Part shown: in pieces, positions 21,182 to 33,532 of the stretch | Layout of the letters: each line of letters starts with the position of its first letter | How positions within the stretch are numbered: the stretch's first letter is position 1 | Source: Laspinema palackyanum D2c | GTDB lineage: Bacteria; Cyanobacteriota; Cyanobacteriia; Cyanobacteriales; Laspinemataceae | Length of the DNA stretch: 64,000 nt | Direction of reading: 5' to 3' | NCBI RefSeq assembly: GCF_025370875.1 | Contig: NZ_JAMXFD010000003.1 | Coordinates: forward strand, 18,393-82,392 | Notes under the pieces: generated by a model | What the model saw: the letters and a program-made list of their open reading frames with translations, nothing else | Databases searched by the model: none | Told to the model about the DNA's origin: nothing | Translations under genes and position numbers: made by a program

Positions 21182-22639
21182 ATGGCATCCATCCGCGAGT
21201 TACACAAACAACTAATCCGAAAAGAACGCTCGGCGGTAGAAATTACCAAAGAAGCCCTAGAGCGGATCGACAAGTTAGAACCCAAACTACATAGCTTCTT
21301 ACTCGTGACACCCGATCGCGCCTTGGAACAAGCGAAACGGGTGGATGCCAAAATCGCTGCCGGTGAAGAAATCGGTATGCTCGCAGGCATTCCTATCGCG
21401 ATTAAAGACAATATGTGCACCGAGGGAGTCCGCACTACTTGCGGATCCCGAATGCTGGAAAACTATGTGCCGCCCTATGAATCAACCGTGACTGAGCGCC
21501 TAATTGAAGCAGGCGCGGTGATGGTGGGTAAAACCAACATGGACGAGTTTGCGATGGGGAGTTCCACGGAAAACTCAGCCTTTCAGCTCACCTCGAACCC
21601 TTGGGACCTGAGCCGGATTCCCGGGGGGTCTTCCGGAGGGTCAGCGGCAGCAGTTTCCTCGGGAGAATGCATTGTTGCCCTCGGTTCGGATACCGGGGGC
21701 TCAATTCGTCAACCCGCTTCGTTTTGTGGGGTAGTGGGGATGAAACCCACCTACGGATTAGTCTCCCGGTATGGGTTGGTCGCCTATGCCTCTTCCCTGG
21801 ACCAAATTGGACCGTTTGGGCGCACGGTAGAAGATGCGGCAATTTTGCTCAAGCATATTGCGGGCTATGATCCCAAGGATTCGACCAGTTTGAAGGTGAC
21901 GATCCCCGACTATATGAAATTCGTGAAACCCAATTTAAAGCCGAAGGGTCAGCGACGGATTGGGATCATCAAGGAAACCTTTGGGGATGGGTTAGATGCG
22001 GGAGTGGAAAGAGCCGTTACCAAGGCGATCGAGGTGTTGCAAGAGTTAGGGGCGGAGATTCAGGTGGTATCCTGTCCCCGATTCCGCTATGGGTTGCCGA
22101 CTTACTACATTATTGCGCCTTCGGAAGCTTCGGCTAACCTGGCTCGTTACGATGGGGTAAAATATGGGTTCCGCGCCGAGGATAGCGAAAGTTTGATTGA
22201 GATGTATGGCAAGACTCGGGCCCAGGGATTTGGGGCGGAGGTAAAACGCCGGATTGCGATCGGGACTTATGCCCTATCCGCTGGCTATTATGATGCGTAT
22301 TATCTCAAGGCGCAAAAAGTTCGGACTCTGATTAAGGAAGATTTTGAGCGAGCGTTCGCTCAGGTGGATATTTTGGTTTGTCCCACAGCACCTTCTACGG
22401 CATTTAAGGCGGGGGAAAAGACCGCTGACCCCTTGAGTATGTATTTATCGGATTTGATGACCATTCCGGTCAATTTAGGGGGGTTACCTGCCTTGAGTAT
22501 TCCTTGTGGGTTTGATGACCAAGGGTTACCAATTGGAATGCAGATGATTGGGAATGTGTTGCGGGAAGATTTACTGTTTGAAGTGGCCTATGCTTATGAA
22601 CAGGCGACGGATTGGCATAACCGCAAACCCCAAATTTAG
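21182..22639 (+). CDS. gatA: Asp/Glu-tRNA amidotransferase subunit A
   Basis: The amidase subunit of GatCAB, which converts Glu-tRNA(Gln) (and Asp-tRNA(Asn)) to the correct amide. The 485 residues match. The Ser-cisSer-Lys triad is visible: Lys in PIAIKDNM, Ser in [12 protein letters not shown] and the Ser-rich [11 protein letters not shown]. The ATG at 21182 follows AAGGTACGAGC. The 20823-21181 spacer contains only a CCCCGG-rich inverted repeat (about 20905-20938). Confidence 0.97.
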
Positions 22640-22722: not shown

Positions 22723-23640
22723 ATGAGTGGAATGGGACTGCCGACTTCTGTAAAAGGACCTCTTTTGATTGCAGGGATTTTGGCGATCGCCTACTTCGGG
22801 GCTTGTTTATTTCTCTATCTGCGGCAAAATCGGTTTATCTTTTTTCCCGCACCTGTGATAGAAACAACTCCGGCTGAACTCGAACTCAAGTATGAAGAAG
22901 TTTGGATTCCCGTAAGTCAGAAAAGTGGCAAGGTAGAACGCATTCATGGATGGTGGATTCCATCCGAAACTTCAAGCAGTCGGGTCCTGTTGTACCTGCA
23001 TGGGAATGGGGTGAATATTGGGGCAAATGTCAATCATGCCGCCCGGTTTCATCAGTTGGGGTTCTCCGTGTTATTAATTGATTACCGGGGGTATGGACTC
23101 TCGGAAGGGTCATTTCCCACGGAGAATACCGTATTTGTGGATGCAGAAACGGCTTGGAACTATTTAGTTCAGGACCGGGGGATAGCGCCGGAACAGATTT
23201 TCTTGTATGGACATTCTCTCGGAGGGGCGATCGCAATCGACCTCGCAAGTCGTCAACCTGATGCCGCTGGGGCGATCGTTCAAAGTTCCTTTACCACCAT
23301 GCGAGAAATGGTGGATTATCGCTTCCATTTTTGGATGTTTCCCATTGATTTAATATTGACTCATCGCTTTGACTCTCGGGCTAAAATCAGCCAATTACAG
23401 ATTCCCGTTTTGTTCATTCATGGGACGGCTGATCCACAAATTCCCAGTGAAATGACTGAAGAATTGTATCGATTGGCATCGGAACCCAAACAACTTTTTT
23501 TGGTTGCGGATGCCGGACATAATAATGTGGCATCCATTGCGGGAGAAGCCTATTTTCAAGCGGTGCGAGACTTTATTTCAATCACAGAAGAGCAACCCAT
23601 TGTAGAGATGTCCAGAGATAAAATCCAATCTTTGCGATAA
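22723..23640 (+). CDS. Alpha/beta hydrolase, membrane-anchored
   Basis: A 305-residue serine hydrolase of the BEM46/FrsA-like group. An N-terminal membrane helix lies at about 10-32. The oxyanion segment is LYLHGNGVNIG, the nucleophile elbow is YGHSLGGA, the acidic residue is in FIHGTADPQIP, and the His is in ADAGHNN. The active site likely faces outside the membrane, and the substrate is unknown. It is 83 bp after gatA, possibly co-transcribed. Confidence 0.88.
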   Translation: MSGMGLPTSVKGPLLIAGILAIAYFGACLFLYLRQNRFIFFPAPVIETTPAELELKYEEVWIPVSQKSGKVERIHGWWIPSETSSSRVLLYLHGNGVNIGANVNHAARFHQLGFSVLLIDYRGYGLSEGSFPTENTVFVDAETAWNYLVQDRGIAPEQIFLYGHSLGGAIAIDLASRQPDAAGAIVQSSFTTMREMVDYRFHFWMFPIDLILTHRFDSRAKISQLQIPVLFIHGTADPQIPSEMTEELYRLASEPKQLFLVADAGHNNVASIAGEAYFQAVRDFISITEEQPIVEMSRDKIQSLR

Positions 23641-23879: not shown

Positions 23880-26800
23880 ATGTCATTTGTTGGTTTACAT
23901 ATTCACACCGATTACAGTCTGCTTGATGGTGCCAGTCAGATTCCGAAACTGATTGACAAGGCGATCGAGTTGGGAATGCCAGCGATCGCCCTGACGGATC
24001 ACGGGGTCATGTATGGGGCGATCGAACTGATTAAAGTCTGCCGAGGAAAGGGAATTAAACCGATTATCGGCAATGAAATGTATGTGATTAATGAACCCTT
24101 AGATACCAAAGCCCGTTGCCGTCGCTATCATCAAGTTGTTTTAGCAAAAAATACTCAAGGCTATAAAAACTTAGTCAAACTCACCACAATTTCCAGTCTC
24201 GAAGGAATTCACGGCAAAGGAATTTTTGCCCGTCCTTGTATTAATAAAGAACTGTTAGAAAAATATCACGAAGGGTTAATCGTTACCAGTGCTTGTTTAG
24301 GAGGGGAAATTCCTCAAGCGATTTTACAAAATAAACTGGATGTCGCCCGAAAAGTCGCGAAATGGTATAAAAAACTCTTTGGGGATGATTATTATTTAGA
24401 ACTCCAGGATCATGGGTCTCAGGAAGACCGAATGGTGAATGTGGAATTGGTGAAAATTGCCCGCGAACTGAATATTAAACTAATTGCCACCAACGATTCC
24501 CATTTTATCTCCTGTTATGACGTAGAAGCTCATGATGCGCTATTGTGCATTCAAACTGGCAAGCTGATTAGTGAAGATAAGCGGATGCGCTATAGCGGAA
24601 CGGAGTATATGAAATCCGCTGAAGAGATGGCGTTGTTGTTTAGAGATCACTTGTCTGATGACATAATTCAAGAGGCGATCGCCAATACCCTAGAAGTCGC
24701 CAGTAAAATCGAACCCTACCATATTCTCGGCGAACCTCGGATTCCCGATTTCCAATGTCCTCCGGGAGAAACTCCCAACACCTATGTGGAATGGATTGCC
24801 AAAGAAGGACTGAAAGAACGCTTTAAAGTTAAAAGCTACGAAGAAATTCCCCAAGTCTATCGGGACCGGCTGGTTTATGAAGTGAAAATGCTGCAACAAA
24901 TGGGGTTTGCGGCGTACTTTTTGGTCGTTTGGGATTACATCAAATATGCACGCGATCGCGGCATTCCTGTCGGTCCCGGAAGAGGGTCTGCCGCCGGGTC
25001 TCTCGTCGCCTATGCCATGCAAATTACCAATATCGATCCAGTACATCATGGACTTCTATTTGAGCGCTTTTTGAACCCCGAACGGAAATCCATGCCTGAT
25101 ATTGACACAGATTTCTGCATCTCTCGCCGGGATGAAGTGATCCAATATGTGACTGAAAAATACGGCAAAGAACGGGTCGCCCAAATCATCACTTTTAACC
25201 GCATGACTTCCAAAGCCGTGTTAAAAGATGTCGCCCGGGTGTTAGGAGTTCCCTACAAAAAATCCGATGAAATGGCGAAATTAATTCCCGTTGCGCGGGG
25301 GAAACCGGAAAAATTAGCGGTCATGATTTCTGATAAATCCCCCGCTCCGGAATTTCGCGAAGCTTATGTTAAAAACGAACAAATTCCCCGAGATGATGGA
25401 ACGGTAGTCGAATTCCGCCAATGGTTGGATATGGCTATTAGAATTGAAGGAACGAACAAAAGTTCTGGGGTTCATGCTGCCGGAGTCGTGATTTCGGCCG
25501 ACCCCTTAGATGAAATTGTTCCCCTGCAAAAGAATAACGACGGCGCAACCATTACCCAGTATCCGATGGAGGATTTAGAATCCCTGGGGTTGTTAAAAAT
25601 GGACTTTTTAGGGTTGAAGAATTTAACCATGATTCAGAAAACCCTAGACTATATCAAGACAACCAAAAATCTTGATTTTGACCCCTATCAGTTTCCCGCT
25701 GAAGAACGTAAAGCACAGGAAGTTCGAGGCAGAGGCACTAAAAAATTCCCCAAAGATATTGAAAATACCTACAAGATTTTAGAACGGGGGGACCTCGAAG
25801 GAGTTTTTCAATTAGAATCTTCGGGAATGAAACAAATTGTGCAAGATTTAAAACCCTCTTGTATTGAAGATATTTCTTCTATTTTGGCACTCTATCGTCC
25901 CGGGCCCTTGGATGCAGGGCTAATTCCTAAATTTATCGATCGCAAACATGGACGGGAAGAAATTGCCTATGAACATCCTCTTTTAGAAGGCATTCTGCAA
26001 GAAACTTATGCAGTCATGGTCTATCAAGAACAGATCATGAAAATAGCCCAAGATTTAGGGGGATATTCCTTGGGTCAAGCGGATTTATTACGCCGTGCAA
26101 TGGGGAAAAAGAAACCCGAAGAAATGAATAAACATCGGGAACTGTTTCTGGATGGAGCCACAAAAAATGGGGTTTCTAAATCCATTGCAGAAAACTTGTT
26201 TAATCAGATGCTTTTGTTCGCGGAGTATTGCTTAAGCTACGATACCGAGATATTGACCGTAGAATATGGCCCGATGGCGATCGGTCAAATCGTAGAAAAG
26301 CAAATCCCCTGTACCGTTTATAGTGTCGATGGGGAGGGTTATCTGTACCGCCAACCTATCGCCCAATGGCATCATCGGGGTCAGCAAGAGGTTTTTGAAT
26401 ACGCCCTGGCAGAGGGTCGGGTTGTTCGCGCCACAAAAGACCATAAGTTTATGATAAAAGCGGGTCAAATGGTGGCGATTGACGAGATATTTGAGCAGGG
26501 TTTACAACTCATAGGAGTCTCGTCAAAACTGGTCTCGCGTCAAGCTTTGGGAATTCAAACGGTTTATGATATTGGCGTTGAACGGGACCACAATTTTATT
26601 CTCGCCAATGGGTTGGTTGCGTCTAACTGCTTTAACAAATCCCATTCTACTGCTTACGGTTACGTTACCTATCAAACCGCTTATTTGAAGGCGAATTTTC
26701 CCGTCGAATATATGGCGGCTTTGCTGACTTCAAATAGTGGGGACCAGGATAAAGTTCAGAAATATATCGCTAACTGCCAAGAGTTAAATATCACCGTTCA

Positions 26801-28034
26801 AGGACCGGATATTAATCGGTCTGGGGTGGATTTTACCCCGGTGGAGGCGACTGAGGAAAAGAAAACGATTCTGTTTGGATTGTCGGCGGTGAAAAATATT
26901 GGCGACAATGCGATTCATGCTATTTTGACCGAACGAGAGGCGAATGGGCCATTTCACTCTTTGGCGGATTTGTGCGATCGCATTAATCTACATACGGTCA
27001 ACAGTCGCGCCTTAGAAGCCTTGATTAAATGTGGGGCTTTGGATGGTCTCAATCCTAACCGCAAACAAGCGATCGAATATATGCCTCTGGCGATTAAATG
27101 GGCCCAGGACCGGGCTAAGGAACAAGAAACGGGCCAGCTTAATTTATTTGACCAACTGGCAGTAATGACCGAAACTTCTACCTTTGAATCCGCCCCTGTT
27201 CCGCCCAATATTGCCGATTTTCCGGTGGAAGAAAAGCTGCAATTTGAGAAAGAATTGCTGGGATTTTATGTTTCTGAACATCCCTTAAAAAATGCCGGAA
27301 GAATTGCGGAACAGTTGGGGATTGAGGTAGTCAGTCTGGGGAAACTAGATGAACAGAAATCCCGAAGCAAAATCAGTGTGCTGGTGGTGTTGACGGAAGT
27401 TAAACAGATTCTGACGAAAAAAGATGAACGCCGCATGGCTTTTCTGCAAATGGAAGATATTGAAGGGAAGGCAGAAGCGGTGGTATTTCCCGATACTTAT
27501 GAACAAATCCACGAGTTGCTGATTCCGGATACGCCGATTCTGATTGATGGGAAGGTCGATCGCCGCGACGATCGCACTCAGATAATTGTGGAGGAAGCGA
27601 AAGTCTTGAAATTGGACGAGTTGACCCCACTGCGGGAGGCAGTTGTATCGACGAGGATCACGGAGATGATTTTATTGGAACTGACGACCGATCGCATTAA
27701 TAAGCCGGAAATGCTCGATCGCCTGAAAGTGCTTTTGGAAGAACATTCCGCAGACAAAACCAAGGCAACGGTCCCGGCAGTTGCCATCATTGTGAAAGCG
27801 GGCGATCGCCATCGCGCTGCTGCCATTTGCGGACCCAATTTCTGGGTCCAGGATTGTCATAATGTGGTTACCGCCCTCAATTCTGCTGGATTCCCGGCAG
27901 TGGTGTATTCTCTCCCTCCTGGGAATGGGATGGGGAATCTACCCCCATTCCCGGACCAGTTGCCGTTCCAGCAGCTTACGGTTGCCTATCTCAACTCGAT
28001 TCGGTCCATTTTGCAGGACTTGGATGAGGGATGA
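23880..28034 (+). CDS. dnaE: DNA polymerase III alpha subunit with in-frame intein
   Basis: The replicative polymerase catalytic subunit. Of 1384 codons, 133 are an intein, leaving an extein of about 1251. In order: PHP domain ([15 protein letters not shown], 1-230), polymerase palm with [11 protein letters not shown] and catalytic Asp407, Asp409 (PDIDTDF) and Asp575 (KMDFLGLKN), fingers, then the OB/tail region. The intein interrupts FAEY|CFNKSHS, the same site as the split DnaE inteins of other cyanobacteria, but here both halves are in one reading frame. The gene has no clear terminator; palindromic repeats follow it. Confidence 0.97.
26229..26627 (+). other. Contiguous DnaE mini-intein coding segment
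   Basis: Codons 784-916 of dnaE, 133 residues. Block A starts with Cys1 ([14 protein letters not shown]). Block B has the TxxH motif in ATKDHKF. Block F is [14 protein letters not shown], and block G ends in the terminal Asn of GLVASN before Cys+1. No homing-endonuclease domain is present. The usual split point falls in a continuous linker around [18 protein letters not shown], with no stop and no start codon. Ser rather than His precedes the terminal Asn, as in split DnaE inteins. It should splice in cis. Confidence 0.95.
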
Positions 28035-28174: not shown

Positions 28175-30067
28175 TCACGGTGCCTGCCACAGTTTGACCG
28201 TCTCATCCCCTGCGGCAGTGGCGAGGATTTTGCTATCGGGACTGAAGGCGACAGCAAAGACGCGATCGCGATGGTCAGTCAACGTACAAATCGGCTTACG
28301 CTGACGGATATCCCAGAGGATGACGGTTTGATCGCGGCTGCCACTGGCGAGAAATTTGCCATTGGGACTAAAGGCTAGAGCATTGACCCGTTCTGTATGT
28401 CCTGGTAAACGACCGATTTGTTCACCTCGACCCGCATCCCACAAGACGAGGGTCCCGTCAAAATTGCCACTCACGATGGTTTTGCCATTGGGACTGAATG
28501 CCACGGCATTGACGAGGCCAGAATCGCCGTACAGGGTAAAAAAGTGCTGGCCGGTGTGGACATTCCACAGCATCAGGGTTGTGTCCCGACTGCCGGAGGC
28601 GAGGGTAATGCCATCGGGACTAAAGGCGAGGGAATAGACCCAGCTTGAGTGGCCCCTGAGCTTGCGGATAGCTTTGCCGGTGTAGGGATTCCAGAGAATG
28701 ATTTTGCGGTCCCAACTGCCGGAGGCCAGCATGGTCCCATTGGGACTGAAGGCGAGGGAATCTACTAATTCAGAATGGCCGGAAAACCATCCCCCAAGGT
28801 TCCGAATCCGTTCCCCGGTTTCGGCGTTCCAGAGAATGATACTTTTATCCCGGCTGCTACTGGCTAACAGGGGAGATACGGGACTAAAGGCGACGGAAAG
28901 GACTAAATCGGAATGACCCTCTAGGGTGCGGAGGCGATCGCCGGTGGTGATATTCCACAGGATTACGCTTTGATCGGCGCTACCACTGGCTAAGGTATTG
29001 CCATCGGGACTAAAGGAGATCGCCCAGACCCAACCTTGATGACCTTTGAGGGTCCGGATGCATCTCCAGGCATGGGGATCTGCCAGGGGTGGGGTTGCCG
29101 GTGGGGTTGCGGTGGGGAGGGTTGGCGGTAAACTGGACTCTTCTGACCTGTTCAAAAAGGTCGGTCGCCGGGAATGCAAGTCTTCCAGAACTTCAGTTAC
29201 AGACTGATACCGTTCATTCACCCGGTCCTGCAAGAGTTTGTCTAGGATTTGGGCTAAAGCGTCACTCACATCGGTCCCCATTTTCCAGAGTCGTTCTCGC
29301 CAGATCCATCTTCCCTCTAGGGGGTCGTACAAATCGTCAACCCACTCTGCGGTTAACAGTTGAATGCAAGTGACCCCTAGACTATAGAGATCGCTGGCGG
29401 GATAGGCCAGTCCTCCCCGGATCTGCTCTGGGGGCCCATATCCTTCGCTGCCAATGGTACTCCCAGTTCGGGCCAGTCCAAGACTGGCTAAAGGTTTAGA
29501 AACGCCAAAATTCGTGAGGATTAATTCCCCGGTATGGCGGCGGCGAATATTATCCGGTTTGATATCTCGGTGAATAATATTGCGATCGTGAATGGTTTTA
29601 AACACGGGTAAGAGGAGGTCCAGGAGTTCCCAAATTTGGGCTTCTCGGAACGCGCCATGTTGTTCCATCTCTTCGAGCAAACTTTGCCCGTCGATAAACT
29701 CGATCGCCATGTACAGGCGTTTGTCTTGCTCAAAATAATCTAGCAACTTGGCAATCTGCTGATGATCTCCCATTGCCTGCCGACGTTGAGCATCGTGATC
29801 AAAGACTTCAATCACCTTTTCCAGGGTACTACTGTTTGCCGAGGCTTCTAAGCCGGTTTCCACCGGCAGCAGTTGCTTGATAATGCAATAACTGTCTTGC
29901 TGCTGTTGATCCACAGCCAAAAAAGTTCGTTCCATACCCCCTTCTCCCAGAAGTTGGATAGTACGGTAGCGCTCTTTCAGCAGCAAATTCGCTCCACAAC
30001 TTAGACAAGTCTGGATATTCGGTGGGTTTTGGGGATTTGGGCAAGCGGGATTCACGCAATAAGTCAT
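28175..30067 (-). CDS. Zinc-ribbon kinase-like protein with 7 WD40 repeats (possible pseudokinase)
   Basis: A 630-residue protein. An N-terminal four-Cys ribbon (YCVNPACPNP...CLSCG) is followed by a PknB-like kinase domain (about 35-290) and a seven-repeat WD40 propeller (about 340-630). HRDIKPDN and the ATP-binding Lys (CIIKQ) are kept. The metal-binding DFG is NFG (AAT at 29510-29512), and the glycine loop reads GEGGMER where its paralogues have GFGR or GMGR. Catalysis is therefore doubtful. Met at 30067 matches the paralogues' starts. It is the last of four tandem genes. Confidence 0.92.
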   Translation of the reverse strand: MTYCVNPACPNPQNPPNIQTCLSCGANLLLKERYRTIQLLGEGGMERTFLAVDQQQQDSYCIIKQLLPVETGLEASANSSTLEKVIEVFDHDAQRRQAMGDHQQIAKLLDYFEQDKRLYMAIEFIDGQSLLEEMEQHGAFREAQIWELLDLLLPVFKTIHDRNIIHRDIKPDNIRRRHTGELILTNFGVSKPLASLGLARTGSTIGSEGYGPPEQIRGGLAYPASDLYSLGVTCIQLLTAEWVDDLYDPLEGRWIWRERLWKMGTDVSDALAQILDKLLQDRVNERYQSVTEVLEDLHSRRPTFLNRSEESSLPPTLPTATPPATPPLADPHAWRCIRTLKGHQGWVWAISFSPDGNTLASGSADQSVILWNITTGDRLRTLEGHSDLVLSVAFSPVSPLLASSSRDKSIILWNAETGERIRNLGGWFSGHSELVDSLAFSPNGTMLASGSWDRKIILWNPYTGKAIRKLRGHSSWVYSLAFSPDGITLASGSRDTTLMLWNVHTGQHFFTLYGDSGLVNAVAFSPNGKTIVSGNFDGTLVLWDAGRGEQIGRLPGHTERVNALAFSPNGKFLASGSRDQTVILWDIRQRKPICTLTDHRDRVFAVAFSPDSKILATAAGDETVKLWQAP

Positions 30068-30247
30068 ACCAGCAAACACTCAGAAGTGGTTATATAGTAA
30101 TCAGTCTTTACCAAAATTTTGGTCTCGGCACTTTTACGGAACAGTTCCATCGGGGCTAATTTTCAACACCTATTGGTATTGCAGACTACCAATATTCCGG
30201 AATGAATCAGCTTTTCGGGTTCCTACTCGTTTTGTTGATTGCCTATT

Positions 30248-32119
30248 TTATGTTCTATTTTCAGTTGACAAGACAGATTCCCAAATTTTGATTGTATTAT
30301 CCCAACTGCTACTCACTAATTTGTGGCCGTCTGGACTAAAAGCGAGAGAGGTAATAGGTCCCGAATGCCATTTTAAGGTACAGAGTTCTTGTCCGGTTCT
30401 CATAAGGAACAATTTAATCAACCGATCGCGACTGCCACTGGCCAGGATTTCGCCATCGGGACTCACAGCAACCGCTTGTACCCAATCCTTGAGAGTCTGC
30501 AAGCTGTAAGTCTCGGTGTGGGTCTGTAAATCCCACAGTTTCACGATTTTGTCTTCACTGCCACTAACTAACTGCTGACCATTGGGAGTAAAGGCGACGG
30601 CACGGACTGAGGCCAAATGTCCCCGGAGGGTAGTTTGCTCTAATCCGCTGTTTAAGTCCCATAATTTGATGGTATGGTCATCGTATCCACCCCCACTGGC
30701 CAAGGTTTTCCCATCCGGGGCGATCGCCACCGATTCCACATACCCCGTATGTCCAGTCAGGGTCCCCACTGCCATCCCCGTGGTCAGGTCCCACAGTTTC
30801 ACGGTACTGTCAAAACAACCGGCTGCTAGGATTCCGCCATCGGGACTAATTGCGATCGACAACGGATAGGCATTTAATCCATCCCAAGTCTGCAATAAGT
30901 TCCCACTGCCCAAATCCCACAGCTTTAGGGTATTGTCCAAACTGCCACTGACCAGAATTTGTCCGTCGGGACTAATCGCCAGACAACTCACCCACCCGGT
31001 ATGGGCGGTTAAAGTCCCGATCGCCGTCCCGGTGGCCAAATGCCACACCTTGATTGTTTTATCATAACTACAACTGGCTAAGGTTTCTCCATCAGGACTA
31101 ATTGCTACAGCGATCGCATAGTTTTGATGACCTGTCAGAGTATGAATACATTTCCAGGTGTTCGGAATCGAGGGGTTAATCGTCGGGGTCGCCCTTGGGG
31201 AGTTGGACATAAACCGCTGAGGAAGCGACCAATAGAGGTCTGCCAGCGCCCCTCCGGCACTTTCATAGCGATCGTTCACCCACTCCTGCACCATCTTATC
31301 AATCACTTTTTCTAAGCGGCGATCAATCGTTATCCCTTTTTTGATTAATTCTTCTCGCCACAACCAGCGCCCATTCATCGGGTCGTACAATTCATCGGGA
31401 TTGGTATCGGTCATCAAATGAATACAAGTCACCCCTAAACTGTACAAATCACTCGCCGGATACGCTTTCCCTCCCCGCAATTGTTCAATCGGTGCATAGC
31501 CTTCCGTCCCGATTTTAGTTCCCGTCTTAACTAAAACGTTACTACTGAGTTGTTTCGCAACGCCAAAATCAATTAATACATATTTCCCATCGGATTTTTG
31601 TCTTAAAATATTTTCTGGCTTAATATCTCGATGAACCACATTGCGCTCATGAATATGCTGCAAAACCGGCAGTAAATCTAATAATAAAGTTTTGATTTTT
31701 TCAGCGGAAAACGGCCCGGTTTCATCTAACTCCTGCAACAAAGTTTTGCCATTGATGAACTGTTGCACCAAATAGAGACGTCCGTCAATGGCAAAATCTG
31801 CAAATAAGGTCGGAATTTGGGGATGATCCCCGAGTTGTAACAGTCGTTGAGCTTCCTGGGCGAACATTTTAGTCGCCGTTTCTAATAAGTCGGAATTTTG
31901 CTGAACTTGGGGTAACGGCAAAAATTGTTTGATCACACAGGTGGCATTTAAGCGATCGGCATCTTCCGCGATGAAGGTGCGGCCAAATCCCCCTTCCCCC
32001 AACAGGGAAAGTGCTCGATAGCGATCGTTCAGTTGTAACTTGTTGCCACAACTTTGACAAAACTTGATACCGGCTGGATTCTCTGGATTTTGACAGTGGG
32101 GATTGAGACAATAGCTCAT
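30248..32119 (-). CDS. Serine/threonine kinase with 7 WD40 repeats
   Basis: A 623-residue protein from the Met of MSYCLNPHCQNP (32119); a longer frame from 32260 adds 47 residues unlike its paralogues. It has a four-Cys ribbon (1-30), then a kinase domain with an intact loop GEGGFGRT, VIKQ lysine, HRDIKPEN and DFGVAK. Seven WD40 repeats form the C-terminal propeller. No membrane helix is visible, so it is likely cytosolic. Its substrates are unknown. The propeller probably binds partners. Confidence 0.94.
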   Translation of the reverse strand: MSYCLNPHCQNPENPAGIKFCQSCGNKLQLNDRYRALSLLGEGGFGRTFIAEDADRLNATCVIKQFLPLPQVQQNSDLLETATKMFAQEAQRLLQLGDHPQIPTLFADFAIDGRLYLVQQFINGKTLLQELDETGPFSAEKIKTLLLDLLPVLQHIHERNVVHRDIKPENILRQKSDGKYVLIDFGVAKQLSSNVLVKTGTKIGTEGYAPIEQLRGGKAYPASDLYSLGVTCIHLMTDTNPDELYDPMNGRWLWREELIKKGITIDRRLEKVIDKMVQEWVNDRYESAGGALADLYWSLPQRFMSNSPRATPTINPSIPNTWKCIHTLTGHQNYAIAVAISPDGETLASCSYDKTIKVWHLATGTAIGTLTAHTGWVSCLAISPDGQILVSGSLDNTLKLWDLGSGNLLQTWDGLNAYPLSIAISPDGGILAAGCFDSTVKLWDLTTGMAVGTLTGHTGYVESVAIAPDGKTLASGGGYDDHTIKLWDLNSGLEQTTLRGHLASVRAVAFTPNGQQLVSGSEDKIVKLWDLQTHTETYSLQTLKDWVQAVAVSPDGEILASGSRDRLIKLFLMRTGQELCTLKWHSGPITSLAFSPDGHKLVSSSWDNTIKIWESVLSTENRT

Positions 32120-32301
32120 GCCATTTTTCAGGTAAAACGCTTCAGGATACGGGCAACTCTTGTGACTAGACTTCTTGTAGAATTGTCTCAAACCCCCGGA
32201 TGCTCGGGGGTGAGCAATCATCCTCGGAAGGCATTCGGGTCCACTCTCTAGTTTAATCACAATTTCTCCAAATCCACCGCTTTCTGAGAAAATAGATGGG
32301 A

Positions 32302-33450
32302 TTACGGTTCTTGTCCAAATTCAGAGCGTAAGGCTTCTAATTCAGCGGCGATCGGGTCAAATCCAGCGGGTTTATTGGGGGGAGTTGGGCTGGATTTGGG
32401 TGGGGGAGAAGCAGGGGGTGGAGCATTCCCCGGTTGTCCTTGACTAAAATGAGTTTTAATCGCTTGTAAATCCAAGGAAACCGGGTCAAATTTTCCCGGT
32501 TGAACGCCGGGAGAGGGGGGAGTTTGGGCCGCAGCAGGGGGTTTGGGGGGAGGTCCGGCGATCGCCCCAGGTTGCAATACCTGTAAAACCTCGGTCGCTG
32601 ATTGATAGCGATCGCGCACTAATTCTTGCAGCAGTTTATCTAAAACTTGGGCTAAAATAGGAGAGGTCCTTTTCCCTTGCTTTGCCAGTTGTTCTTTCCA
32701 CACCCAACGGGCATTCATCCCATCATATAAATCATCGGGCATTTTTGCCGTTAATAACTGAATACAAGTCACCCCCAAACTATATAAATCACTGGCGGGA
32801 TAAGCTTGACCTCCGCGAATTTGTTCTAGGGGCGCATATCCGTGAGTTCCGGCGCGAGTTCCCATTTGGGCCAGGGCAGTCCCCGTCCCTTCTTTTGCCA
32901 CCCCAAAATCAACTAAAACCAGTTTATTATCCTTGCGCCGACGTAAAATATTATCCGGTTTGATATCTCGATGAATCACATGATTGTTGTGAATAAATTG
33001 CAGAATGGGCAATAAATCCAGTAACAGGGATTGTATTTGAGTTTCGCTAAACGGTCCCTGGGTTTTGAGTTCATCTAAAAGGTCGGGACCATCAATTAAT
33101 TCTTGAACTAAATACCAGCGTTTATCTTGTTCAAAATAAGCATAAAGGGAGGGAATTTGAGGATGTTCCCCCAGATGAAGCAGTTGCACCGCTTCCCGTT
33201 GAAACAGTTCCGTTGCTTTTGCTAAGGCAGCAGTCCCTTGAATTTGGGGGAAAAACTGTTTAATCACACAGGGTGCATTGAGGCGGTCTTCATCAACGGC
33301 AAAAAAGGTGCGACCCATCCCCCCTTGGCCCAGGGGTTGGACCGCCCGATAGCGATCGCGCAACAGTAATTTAGCCCCACAAGTTAGACAAAATTTGGTA
33401 CTGGGGGGATTGGCGGGGTTAGGGCAGTTTGAATTGAGACAATAGGTCAT
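32302..33450 (-). CDS. Serine/threonine kinase with proline-rich repeated tail
   Basis: A 382-residue protein from MTYCLNSNCPNP (33450). It has a zinc ribbon, then a kinase domain with GQGGMGRT, VIKQ, HRDIKPDN and DFGVAK all intact. In place of the WD40 propeller there is a proline-rich tail of about 90 residues. The tail carries a duplicated motif (FDPVSLDLQAIKTHFSQ and FDPIAAELEALRSEFGQ). The tail motif is not one I can name. It lies between two WD40-type paralogues with gaps of 180 and 82 bp. Confidence 0.93.
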   Translation of the reverse strand: MTYCLNSNCPNPANPPSTKFCLTCGAKLLLRDRYRAVQPLGQGGMGRTFFAVDEDRLNAPCVIKQFFPQIQGTAALAKATELFQREAVQLLHLGEHPQIPSLYAYFEQDKRWYLVQELIDGPDLLDELKTQGPFSETQIQSLLLDLLPILQFIHNNHVIHRDIKPDNILRRRKDNKLVLVDFGVAKEGTGTALAQMGTRAGTHGYAPLEQIRGGQAYPASDLYSLGVTCIQLLTAKMPDDLYDGMNARWVWKEQLAKQGKRTSPILAQVLDKLLQELVRDRYQSATEVLQVLQPGAIAGPPPKPPAAAQTPPSPGVQPGKFDPVSLDLQAIKTHFSQGQPGNAPPPASPPPKSSPTPPNKPAGFDPIAAELEALRSEFGQEP

Positions 33451-33532
33451 AATCTTACCGGAATTGACAGAATGGGTATCGTTCCTCGGTGATGAGTGGC
33501 GATCGCACCGAAACAAGTCTGATCCGCCTGGT

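Follow-up and report, generated by a model that had tools for sequence, protein, structure and literature searches.

The DnaE split inteins of cyanobacteria are the workhorses of protein trans-splicing. In the natural Npu and Ssp inteins, the two halves are encoded by two genes and are spliced in trans, whereas the intein described here is encoded by one gene and would be expected to splice in cis. It is located in dnaE of Laspinema palackyanum D2c, within a stretch of 64,000 nucleotides (contig NZ_JAMXFD010000003.1, positions 18,393 to 82,392) that is referred to as the window; coordinates are those of the window. Relatives in the same genus carry a gene for a LAGLIDADG endonuclease between the two halves of this intein. 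The contiguous form in the window is probably a re-fusion after loss of this gene, and not a pre-split ancestor.

In the "fractured genes" of Dassa et al. (2009), a free-standing endonuclease gene is said to lie between the halves of a split intein. These genes are reportedly mainly from phages, about half of them with Vsr-like endonucleases. The dnaE of Trichodesmium is said to carry several inteins.

Split inteins are explained in two reviews (PMC7765530, PMC5874633) by a break in the gene of a contiguous (mini-)intein, and one of them invokes genomic rearrangement. In an evolutionary study (PMC5029880), a single gain of the DnaE intein in cyanobacteria is regarded as most likely, followed by losses. 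PMC6390638 describes a DnaE intein of 415 residues from Desulfonema and also a dnaE in two adjacent reading frames, and states that this is not the cyanobacterial split case. Among the papers listed in a search of the open-access literature, none dealt, by its title and the opening of its abstract, with an unsplit DnaE intein at this position or with an endonuclease between the DnaE halves. Both the contiguous form and the endonuclease-split form are probably new.

Contiguous mini-intein in the window dnaE

The gene and its parts are as follows.

23880-28034, + strand: dnaE, DNA polymerase III alpha subunit, one open reading frame (ORF) of 1384 residues with the intein inside
23880-26228, + strand: N-extein of DnaE, 783 residues, the last being QMLLFAEY; part of the ORF, matching the empty-site junction
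26229-26627, + strand: contiguous DnaE mini-intein, 133 residues from Cys1 to Asn133, then Cys+1; from sequence, profiles, and fold model
26229-26510, + strand: part homologous to the split N-intein, intein residues 1-94; from alignment to split relatives
26511-26525, + strand: linker IGVSS, 15 nucleotides, the presumed fusion point; from comparison with split relatives
26526-26627, + strand: counterpart of the split C-intein by homology, intein residues 100-133; the start codon of the C-intein is lacking
26628-28031, + strand: C-extein of DnaE, the first residues being CFNKSHS

The intein spans exactly 399 nucleotides (DnaE residues 784-916). It begins with Cys, ends with Asn, and is followed by the host residues Cys-Phe-Asn-Lys-Ser. 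The first-pass annotation had described it as an unsplit intein in one reading frame. This is confirmed by the 1384-residue ORF, by matches to the NCBIfam profiles intein_Nterm (8.2e-15) and intein_Cterm (8.5e-8), and by PDB sequence matches, the best of which are the Npu and Ssp DnaE inteins, with Npu 2keq at the top (E 1.9e-53). The same annotation had noted the lack of a stop, a start, and an endonuclease domain, and this also holds: the frame has no stop, the junction lacks an in-frame Met, and a Pfam scan of the window DnaE gave no LAGLIDADG family. Two NCBIfam dnaE models (876 and 449 positions) cover residues 1-880 and 883-1345 and meet inside the intein.

The predicted structure of the intein (mean predicted local distance difference test score, pLDDT, of 80) has a HINT fold. 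Its template modelling (TM) score against the Npu DnaE intein 4kl5 is 0.90, with 63% identity, and the eight best matches in the fold search are all DnaE inteins. Cys1, Thr69, His72, the C-terminal Asn, and Cys+1, which we take to be the splicing residues, are retained. The insertion site is presumably shared with the Npu and Ssp DnaE split inteins. By insertion site (FAEY^CFNKS), sequence, and HINT fold match, the window intein belongs to the cyanobacterial DnaE inteins. With 133 contiguous residues and no endonuclease domain it is a mini-intein, a class of approximately 130-150 residues. It is read in one open frame, and not as the two separately translated halves of a natural split intein. 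The free-standing endonuclease gene that marks a fractured gene is absent from the window and present in relatives.

Cis-splicing seems very likely, because without it the only dnaE detected in this genome (81 contigs, estimated 100% complete) would remain interrupted. As judged from sequence and fold, a single DnaE precursor would be made, from which the intein would excise itself by the chemistry of Cys1, Asn133, and Cys+1. For contiguous inteins, the three pairs within Laspinema have a ratio of nonsynonymous to synonymous substitution rates (dN/dS) of 0.114-0.216, and two copies from elsewhere in the order (G369 and G596) have one of 0.164; that of the first 250 codons of the C-extein is 0.023-0.041. 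The window intein is under purifying selection, and the values within Laspinema fit a functional element.

Site states in Laspinema and the endonuclease between the halves

All eight available genomes of the window's GTDB genus were surveyed, the window genome being G000. The site is contiguous in three, empty in two, split in place in two, and unseen in one (G391), where the contig breaks ahead of it. Contiguous 133-residue inteins are found in G000, Oscillatoria sp. HE19RPO 58 (G392, locus L032), and L. palackyanum D2a (G394, L033); the latter two are 93% and 90% identical to the window intein. The empty sites (G388 and G393; L148 and L149) read FAEY^CFNKSHS, the same junction as in the window and in the split relatives. 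In L. olomoucense D3b (G389, L036) and Phormidium pseudopriestleyi FRX01 (G390, L035), dnaE-N with its part of the intein is followed by a LAGLIDADG ORF in another frame and then by dnaE-C. The N-part terminates at its own stop, the endonuclease ORF begins within the tail of the N-part, and the C-part begins within the end of the endonuclease. In G390, the reading frame of the endonuclease is broken near its end. In other words, fused, split-with-endonuclease, and empty states coexist in one genus. The resulting cis/trans pairs are 82-84% identical over residues 1-94.

Two genes upstream of dnaE are present in all eight genomes, which means that dnaE kept its place in the genus.

21182-22639, + strand: presumably a gatA-like gene
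22723-23640, + strand: presumably an alpha/beta-hydrolase-like gene

In the family (14 genomes), 3 sites are contiguous, 2 are endonuclease-split, and 4 are empty, and G391 has no match; in the remaining 4 genomes, the split halves lie approximately 6-9 kb apart on one strand.

The endonuclease was detected in 18 of 291 genomes of the order and in 6 of 388 genomes of the class, one of the latter (G025) being only 24% identical. In 17 of the 18 order genomes it lies in a single stretch with an intein half on either side (for G599 by way of locus L044), and in G552 it is spread over two contigs, with one piece beside each half. The single weak match elsewhere (L176, 30%) is also in G552. The gene is broken, interrupted, or spread out in 5 of the 18 (G390, G588, G460, G599, and G552); in L044 (6284-9622, Microcoleus vaginatus HSN003), the interruption is of approximately 2.5 kb. 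A further endonuclease-split case is G702. The endonuclease adjoins dnaE intein halves in 10 GTDB families, six within the order (f1, f3, f7, f52, f60, f61) and four outside it (f21, f28, f41, f43). Both halves are seen in 8 of the 10, and only the N half in f43 (G061, at a contig end) and f28 (G162). The endonuclease-split form is therefore widespread, and its arrangement is the fractured-gene layout for the textbook DnaE split intein.

The endonuclease has approximately 260 residues and two LAGLIDADG motifs, LLGLMAADG and LLGYFDGDG. It is matched by Pfam LAGLIDADG_3 in two stretches (E 5.7e-11), and its N-terminal part resembles a helix-turn-helix in weak Pfam matches only. The structure model is of low confidence (mean pLDDT 56). 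The median dN/dS is 0.148 (range 0.086-0.353) for single-ORF copies, including one 51-residue remnant and three near-duplicate assemblies; of 210 pairs, the 101 whose dS lies between 0 and 2 were used. The protein is conserved and homing-endonuclease-like, with putative homing activity. In the collections searched, its best match outside cyanobacteria is an ORF on a Brevibacillus plasmid (35% identity across 67% of the query, E 1e-24); the 7 plasmid records matched are all partial (57-72% of the query) and at best 35% identical. Staphylococcus phage endonucleases match at 25-30% identity (E down to 7e-17); several of them are labelled intron-encoded, and one is I-MsaII. PHROG 4645 matches at E 7.2e-36, and the sole PDB match is 2dch, a putative homing endonuclease (E 0.005). 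None of 8 pattern matches in viral contigs was a relative, in a search sensitive to close relatives only.

A GGAG- or AGGA-like ribosome-binding site is found upstream of dnaE-C in all 21 endonuclease rows, and it sits in the last codons of the endonuclease where the copy is intact. This suggests that dnaE-C may be translated through the endonuclease gene. The same strings occur in 18 of 28 other linked rows; for far rows the count is 7 of 14, and for contiguous rows it is 4 of 6. Any of five short strings in a 26-nucleotide stretch was counted, and the anchor was a few bases off in some rows, for example in G702.

Contiguous copies at the DnaE site are rare. They were defined as one match over the whole 173-residue query without a stop, and were sought in overlapping samples of 388 class and 388 order genomes drawn from larger groups. 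Two class genomes have one, as do six of the order genomes (277 of the 388 match at E 1e-30): G000, G392, and G394, then G369 and G596 (137 residues), and G695 (145 residues; locus L034, the metagenome-assembled genome (MAG) Microcoleus sp. CSU_2_2). The first-pass annotation had allowed that many contiguous inteins at this site might be on record; the open-access search gave no such record. It had also placed the halves of the well-known inteins in two distant genes. This stands for many genomes and fails for others. Among the 125 class genomes common to the best 150 N rows and the best 150 C rows, the halves are on different contigs in 67 (many are drafts, in which linkage may be hidden), on one contig but far apart or inverted in 28, in tandem on the same strand in 28, where the matches are separated by 67-8198 bp, and contiguous in 2.

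Some gaps between dnaE-N and dnaE-C hold other ORFs, not LAGLIDADG (L126, L127, L132, L138, L139, L144, and L145). By the look of their sequences these are presumably Uma2-like, DNA-methylase-like, and large kinase-like, as if incoming genes were tolerated at this place. G277 (genus g9, one contig) apparently lacks the intein, with no match at E 1e-30 and a weak one at 3.5e-4; its genus has several endonuclease-split copies. L063, filed as a Chloroflexaceae MAG, has a cyanobacterial split N-intein in dnaE and is probably wrongly binned.

Direction of change between split and fused forms

The first-pass annotation had left it open whether the window intein is a pre-split ancestor or a re-fusion. 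The placement of contiguous inteins at three points of the intein tree, a test on DNA, and scars now favour re-fusion. In the protein tree (69 rows, 128 columns), contiguous inteins occupy three places, each near endonuclease-split relatives. The three Laspinema inteins form a clade with the endonuclease-split G389 and G390 (support 97/88 on protein, 100/99 on DNA), and G369 and G596 form another with the split G702 (99/97 and 100/99). G695 stands beside nine endonuclease-split rows in the protein tree (86/83); in the DNA tree it pairs with Prado104, which is tandem-split without the endonuclease (74/81). A single clade of contiguous inteins was rejected on DNA at p 8.9e-9, a value to be read with care, since base composition differs among some rows and the groups were named after the tree had been seen.

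Because the intein trees are unrooted, the direction is also drawn from the history that endonuclease and intein share, and from the scars. Endonuclease and intein distances are correlated. For the 17 taxa left after one remnant and three duplicates had been dropped from the 21 endonuclease rows, r is 0.91; with a single taxon for each of 10 genera, r is 0.83 (p 0.0001). The Laspinema copy in G389 lies near this line (mean residual 0.23 standard deviations, sd). For this reason, the endonuclease has probably been with the intein since before Laspinema, as an old resident and not a late arrival, and the contiguous Laspinema form would have lost it. No match to the relatives' endonuclease was found in the window's own genome at E 1e-8.

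Remnants show that the endonuclease was lost repeatedly. In Limnofasciculus (L049), both of its ends remain between the split halves (p 0.0003 each, the minimum with the 3000 shuffles of the remnant tests). In L060, the 3' end remains (p 0.0003), and the match to the start is not significant (p 0.59); in G045, 51 residues remain. In the contiguous G369 and G596, the linkers match the N-tail of a split congener, G702 (p 0.0002 and 0.0008, respectively), and then lead directly into the C-part. The window linker matches the 3' end of the G389 endonuclease (p 0.005), and the AGGAG in it (26513-26517) corresponds to the endonuclease 3' end and dnaE-C ribosome-binding site of the split relatives. 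The window linker has no similarity to the split N-tail of G389 (p 0.71).

The endonuclease-split relatives thus explain the contiguous window case, and we infer a change from split to fused. The ancestor would have had dnaE-N with the N-intein, a free-standing LAGLIDADG gene in another frame, and dnaE-C with the C-intein. A deletion would then have taken the endonuclease gene, the stop of the N-intein, and the start of the C-intein, and would have fused the halves in frame. Re-fusion seems to have occurred at least twice more, in G369/G596 and in G695. In the flanking-gene tree, the contiguous genomes, G388, and G391 form one clade (93/96), with G389, G390, and G393 outside; this fits one fusion in the genus and later loss of the intein in G388.

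Several observations weigh against this reconstruction. A tree of intein sequences, the check that had been proposed at the outset, gives the three placements, and yet it is unrooted, which weakens the inferred direction. By the approximately unbiased (AU) test on protein, one clade of all contiguous inteins is not rejected (p 0.128), and neither is a clade of Laspinema and G369/G596 with G695 left out (p 0.117; 0.0003 on DNA). On DNA, G596 falls closer to the split G702 than to the contiguous G369 (98/76); grouping G369 with G596 is not rejected there (p 0.34), and two fusions or an endonuclease gain are possible in this group. Single Laspinema pairs lie off the endonuclease-intein line, by -2.9 sd (G473), -3.4 sd (G497), and +2.1 sd (G555). 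Between genera, endonuclease and intein distances do not agree with those of host dnaE (r 0.17 and 0.18, p 0.25 and 0.24; 10 taxa, with little power), so that horizontal movement of the intein between genera, which is hinted at here, may confuse the direction. Other parts of dnaE give trees different from those of the flanking genes, which indicates recombination in dnaE of the genus. The scar p values come from 11 linker and 4 remnant tests, on segments picked by eye, and are uncorrected. The match of the window linker is a short one; for its homologue in G392, which has the same sequence in G394, p is 0.11, and the three copies do not count as independent. The linker of G695 is weakly like the split spacer of Prado104 (p 0.037) and not significantly like the endonuclease ends of the Microcoleus group (p 0.30 and 0.39).

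If the window intein were a pre-split ancestor, Laspinema would have kept the original mini-intein, and the endonuclease would have invaded separately in G389/G390 and in other lineages. The window junction with neither an in-frame Met nor a long tail, the dissimilarity of its linker to the split N-tail, and the AU result on protein are compatible with this, and endonuclease genes can in principle invade inteins. We consider it unlikely, however. The endonuclease would have had to insert repeatedly at one point and with the same overlaps each time, endonuclease and intein diverged together, and each of the three contiguous lineages is near split ones. The match of the G369/G596 linker to the split N-tail also argues against it, although insertion there would leave the same match. 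Horizontal gain, in which recombination would have brought a mini-intein, fused beforehand in another cyanobacterium, into a Laspinema dnaE without an intein, seems quite improbable. It would agree with the empty sites in the genus, the recombining dnaE region, and the disagreement of intein and host dnaE distances between genera; however, the split inteins of Laspinema itself are the nearest, and no closer contiguous copy was found in the 388 order and 388 class genomes sampled or in 46 loci. An assembly or annotation artefact is hardly conceivable. The first-pass annotation had named evidence of a broken dnaE as a refutation, and none was found: the window's assembly and two others of the genus agree on the 133-residue intein, which makes an assembly error very unlikely, and the inteins of the three have dN/dS of 0.11-0.22.

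Re-fusion after endonuclease loss might be one step of a longer cycle. It seems about evenly balanced whether the DnaE split intein is an old, still mobile fractured-gene element or a one-off frozen rearrangement. If it is mobile, the endonuclease gene would split the intein in place, and the halves would stay translationally coupled through it. The gap might later gather cargo until the halves drift apart. Some lineages would delete the endonuclease and re-fuse the intein, the window being an example. Even within a genus or family, the split, fused, empty, and drifted-apart states would interconvert.

Neighbouring features and comparison with known systems

A second insert, of approximately 1200 bp at DnaE residue ~714, is present in at least 5 of the 8 genus genomes (G388, G389, G390, G392, and L033). 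In L033 (4567-5808) it is an ordinary in-frame intein of approximately 400 residues with LAGLIDADG. It is absent in the window and G393; the G391 contig ends there and may have it. This insert contaminated a first set of extein distances, which was discarded, and clean pieces were used instead. The first 2129 nucleotides of the window dnaE (23880-26008) group with G393 (100/100), while the adjacent upstream genes go with G394 (96/97); a recombination boundary near the window dnaE seems likely. Downstream (28175-33516) are three tandem minus-strand genes, presumably serine/threonine kinases, two of them with WD40-like repeats.

The main value of the window intein is that it exposes empty, split-with-endonuclease, and (most likely) re-fused states in one genus. 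This coexistence makes the origin of splitting testable and supplies natural cis/trans pairs. It is also a warning that the DnaE intein needs checks before it is used as a gained-once marker. The famous DnaE split looks old, mobile, and reversible.

As in Trichodesmium, where several inteins are said to occur, the dnaE of Laspinema has more than one insert, but the insert at residue ~714 is a different intein at a different site, which is empty in the window. Going by their descriptions only, none of the matches to the LAGLIDADG endonuclease from outside cyanobacteria is given as lying within a DnaE intein. The gene order of fractured genes is found in the dnaE of L036, L055, L052, and others. 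These relatives differ from fractured genes in having a chromosomal cyanobacterial dnaE and a LAGLIDADG enzyme with a helix-turn-helix-like N-terminal part, and the window differs in having no endonuclease. The closest likeness is to the Npu and Ssp DnaE split inteins (2keq, 4kl5, 1zd7), with which the window intein shares the host protein, the predicted HINT fold, and the retained splicing residues; its linker is 4 residues shorter than that of the fused Npu protein 2keq.
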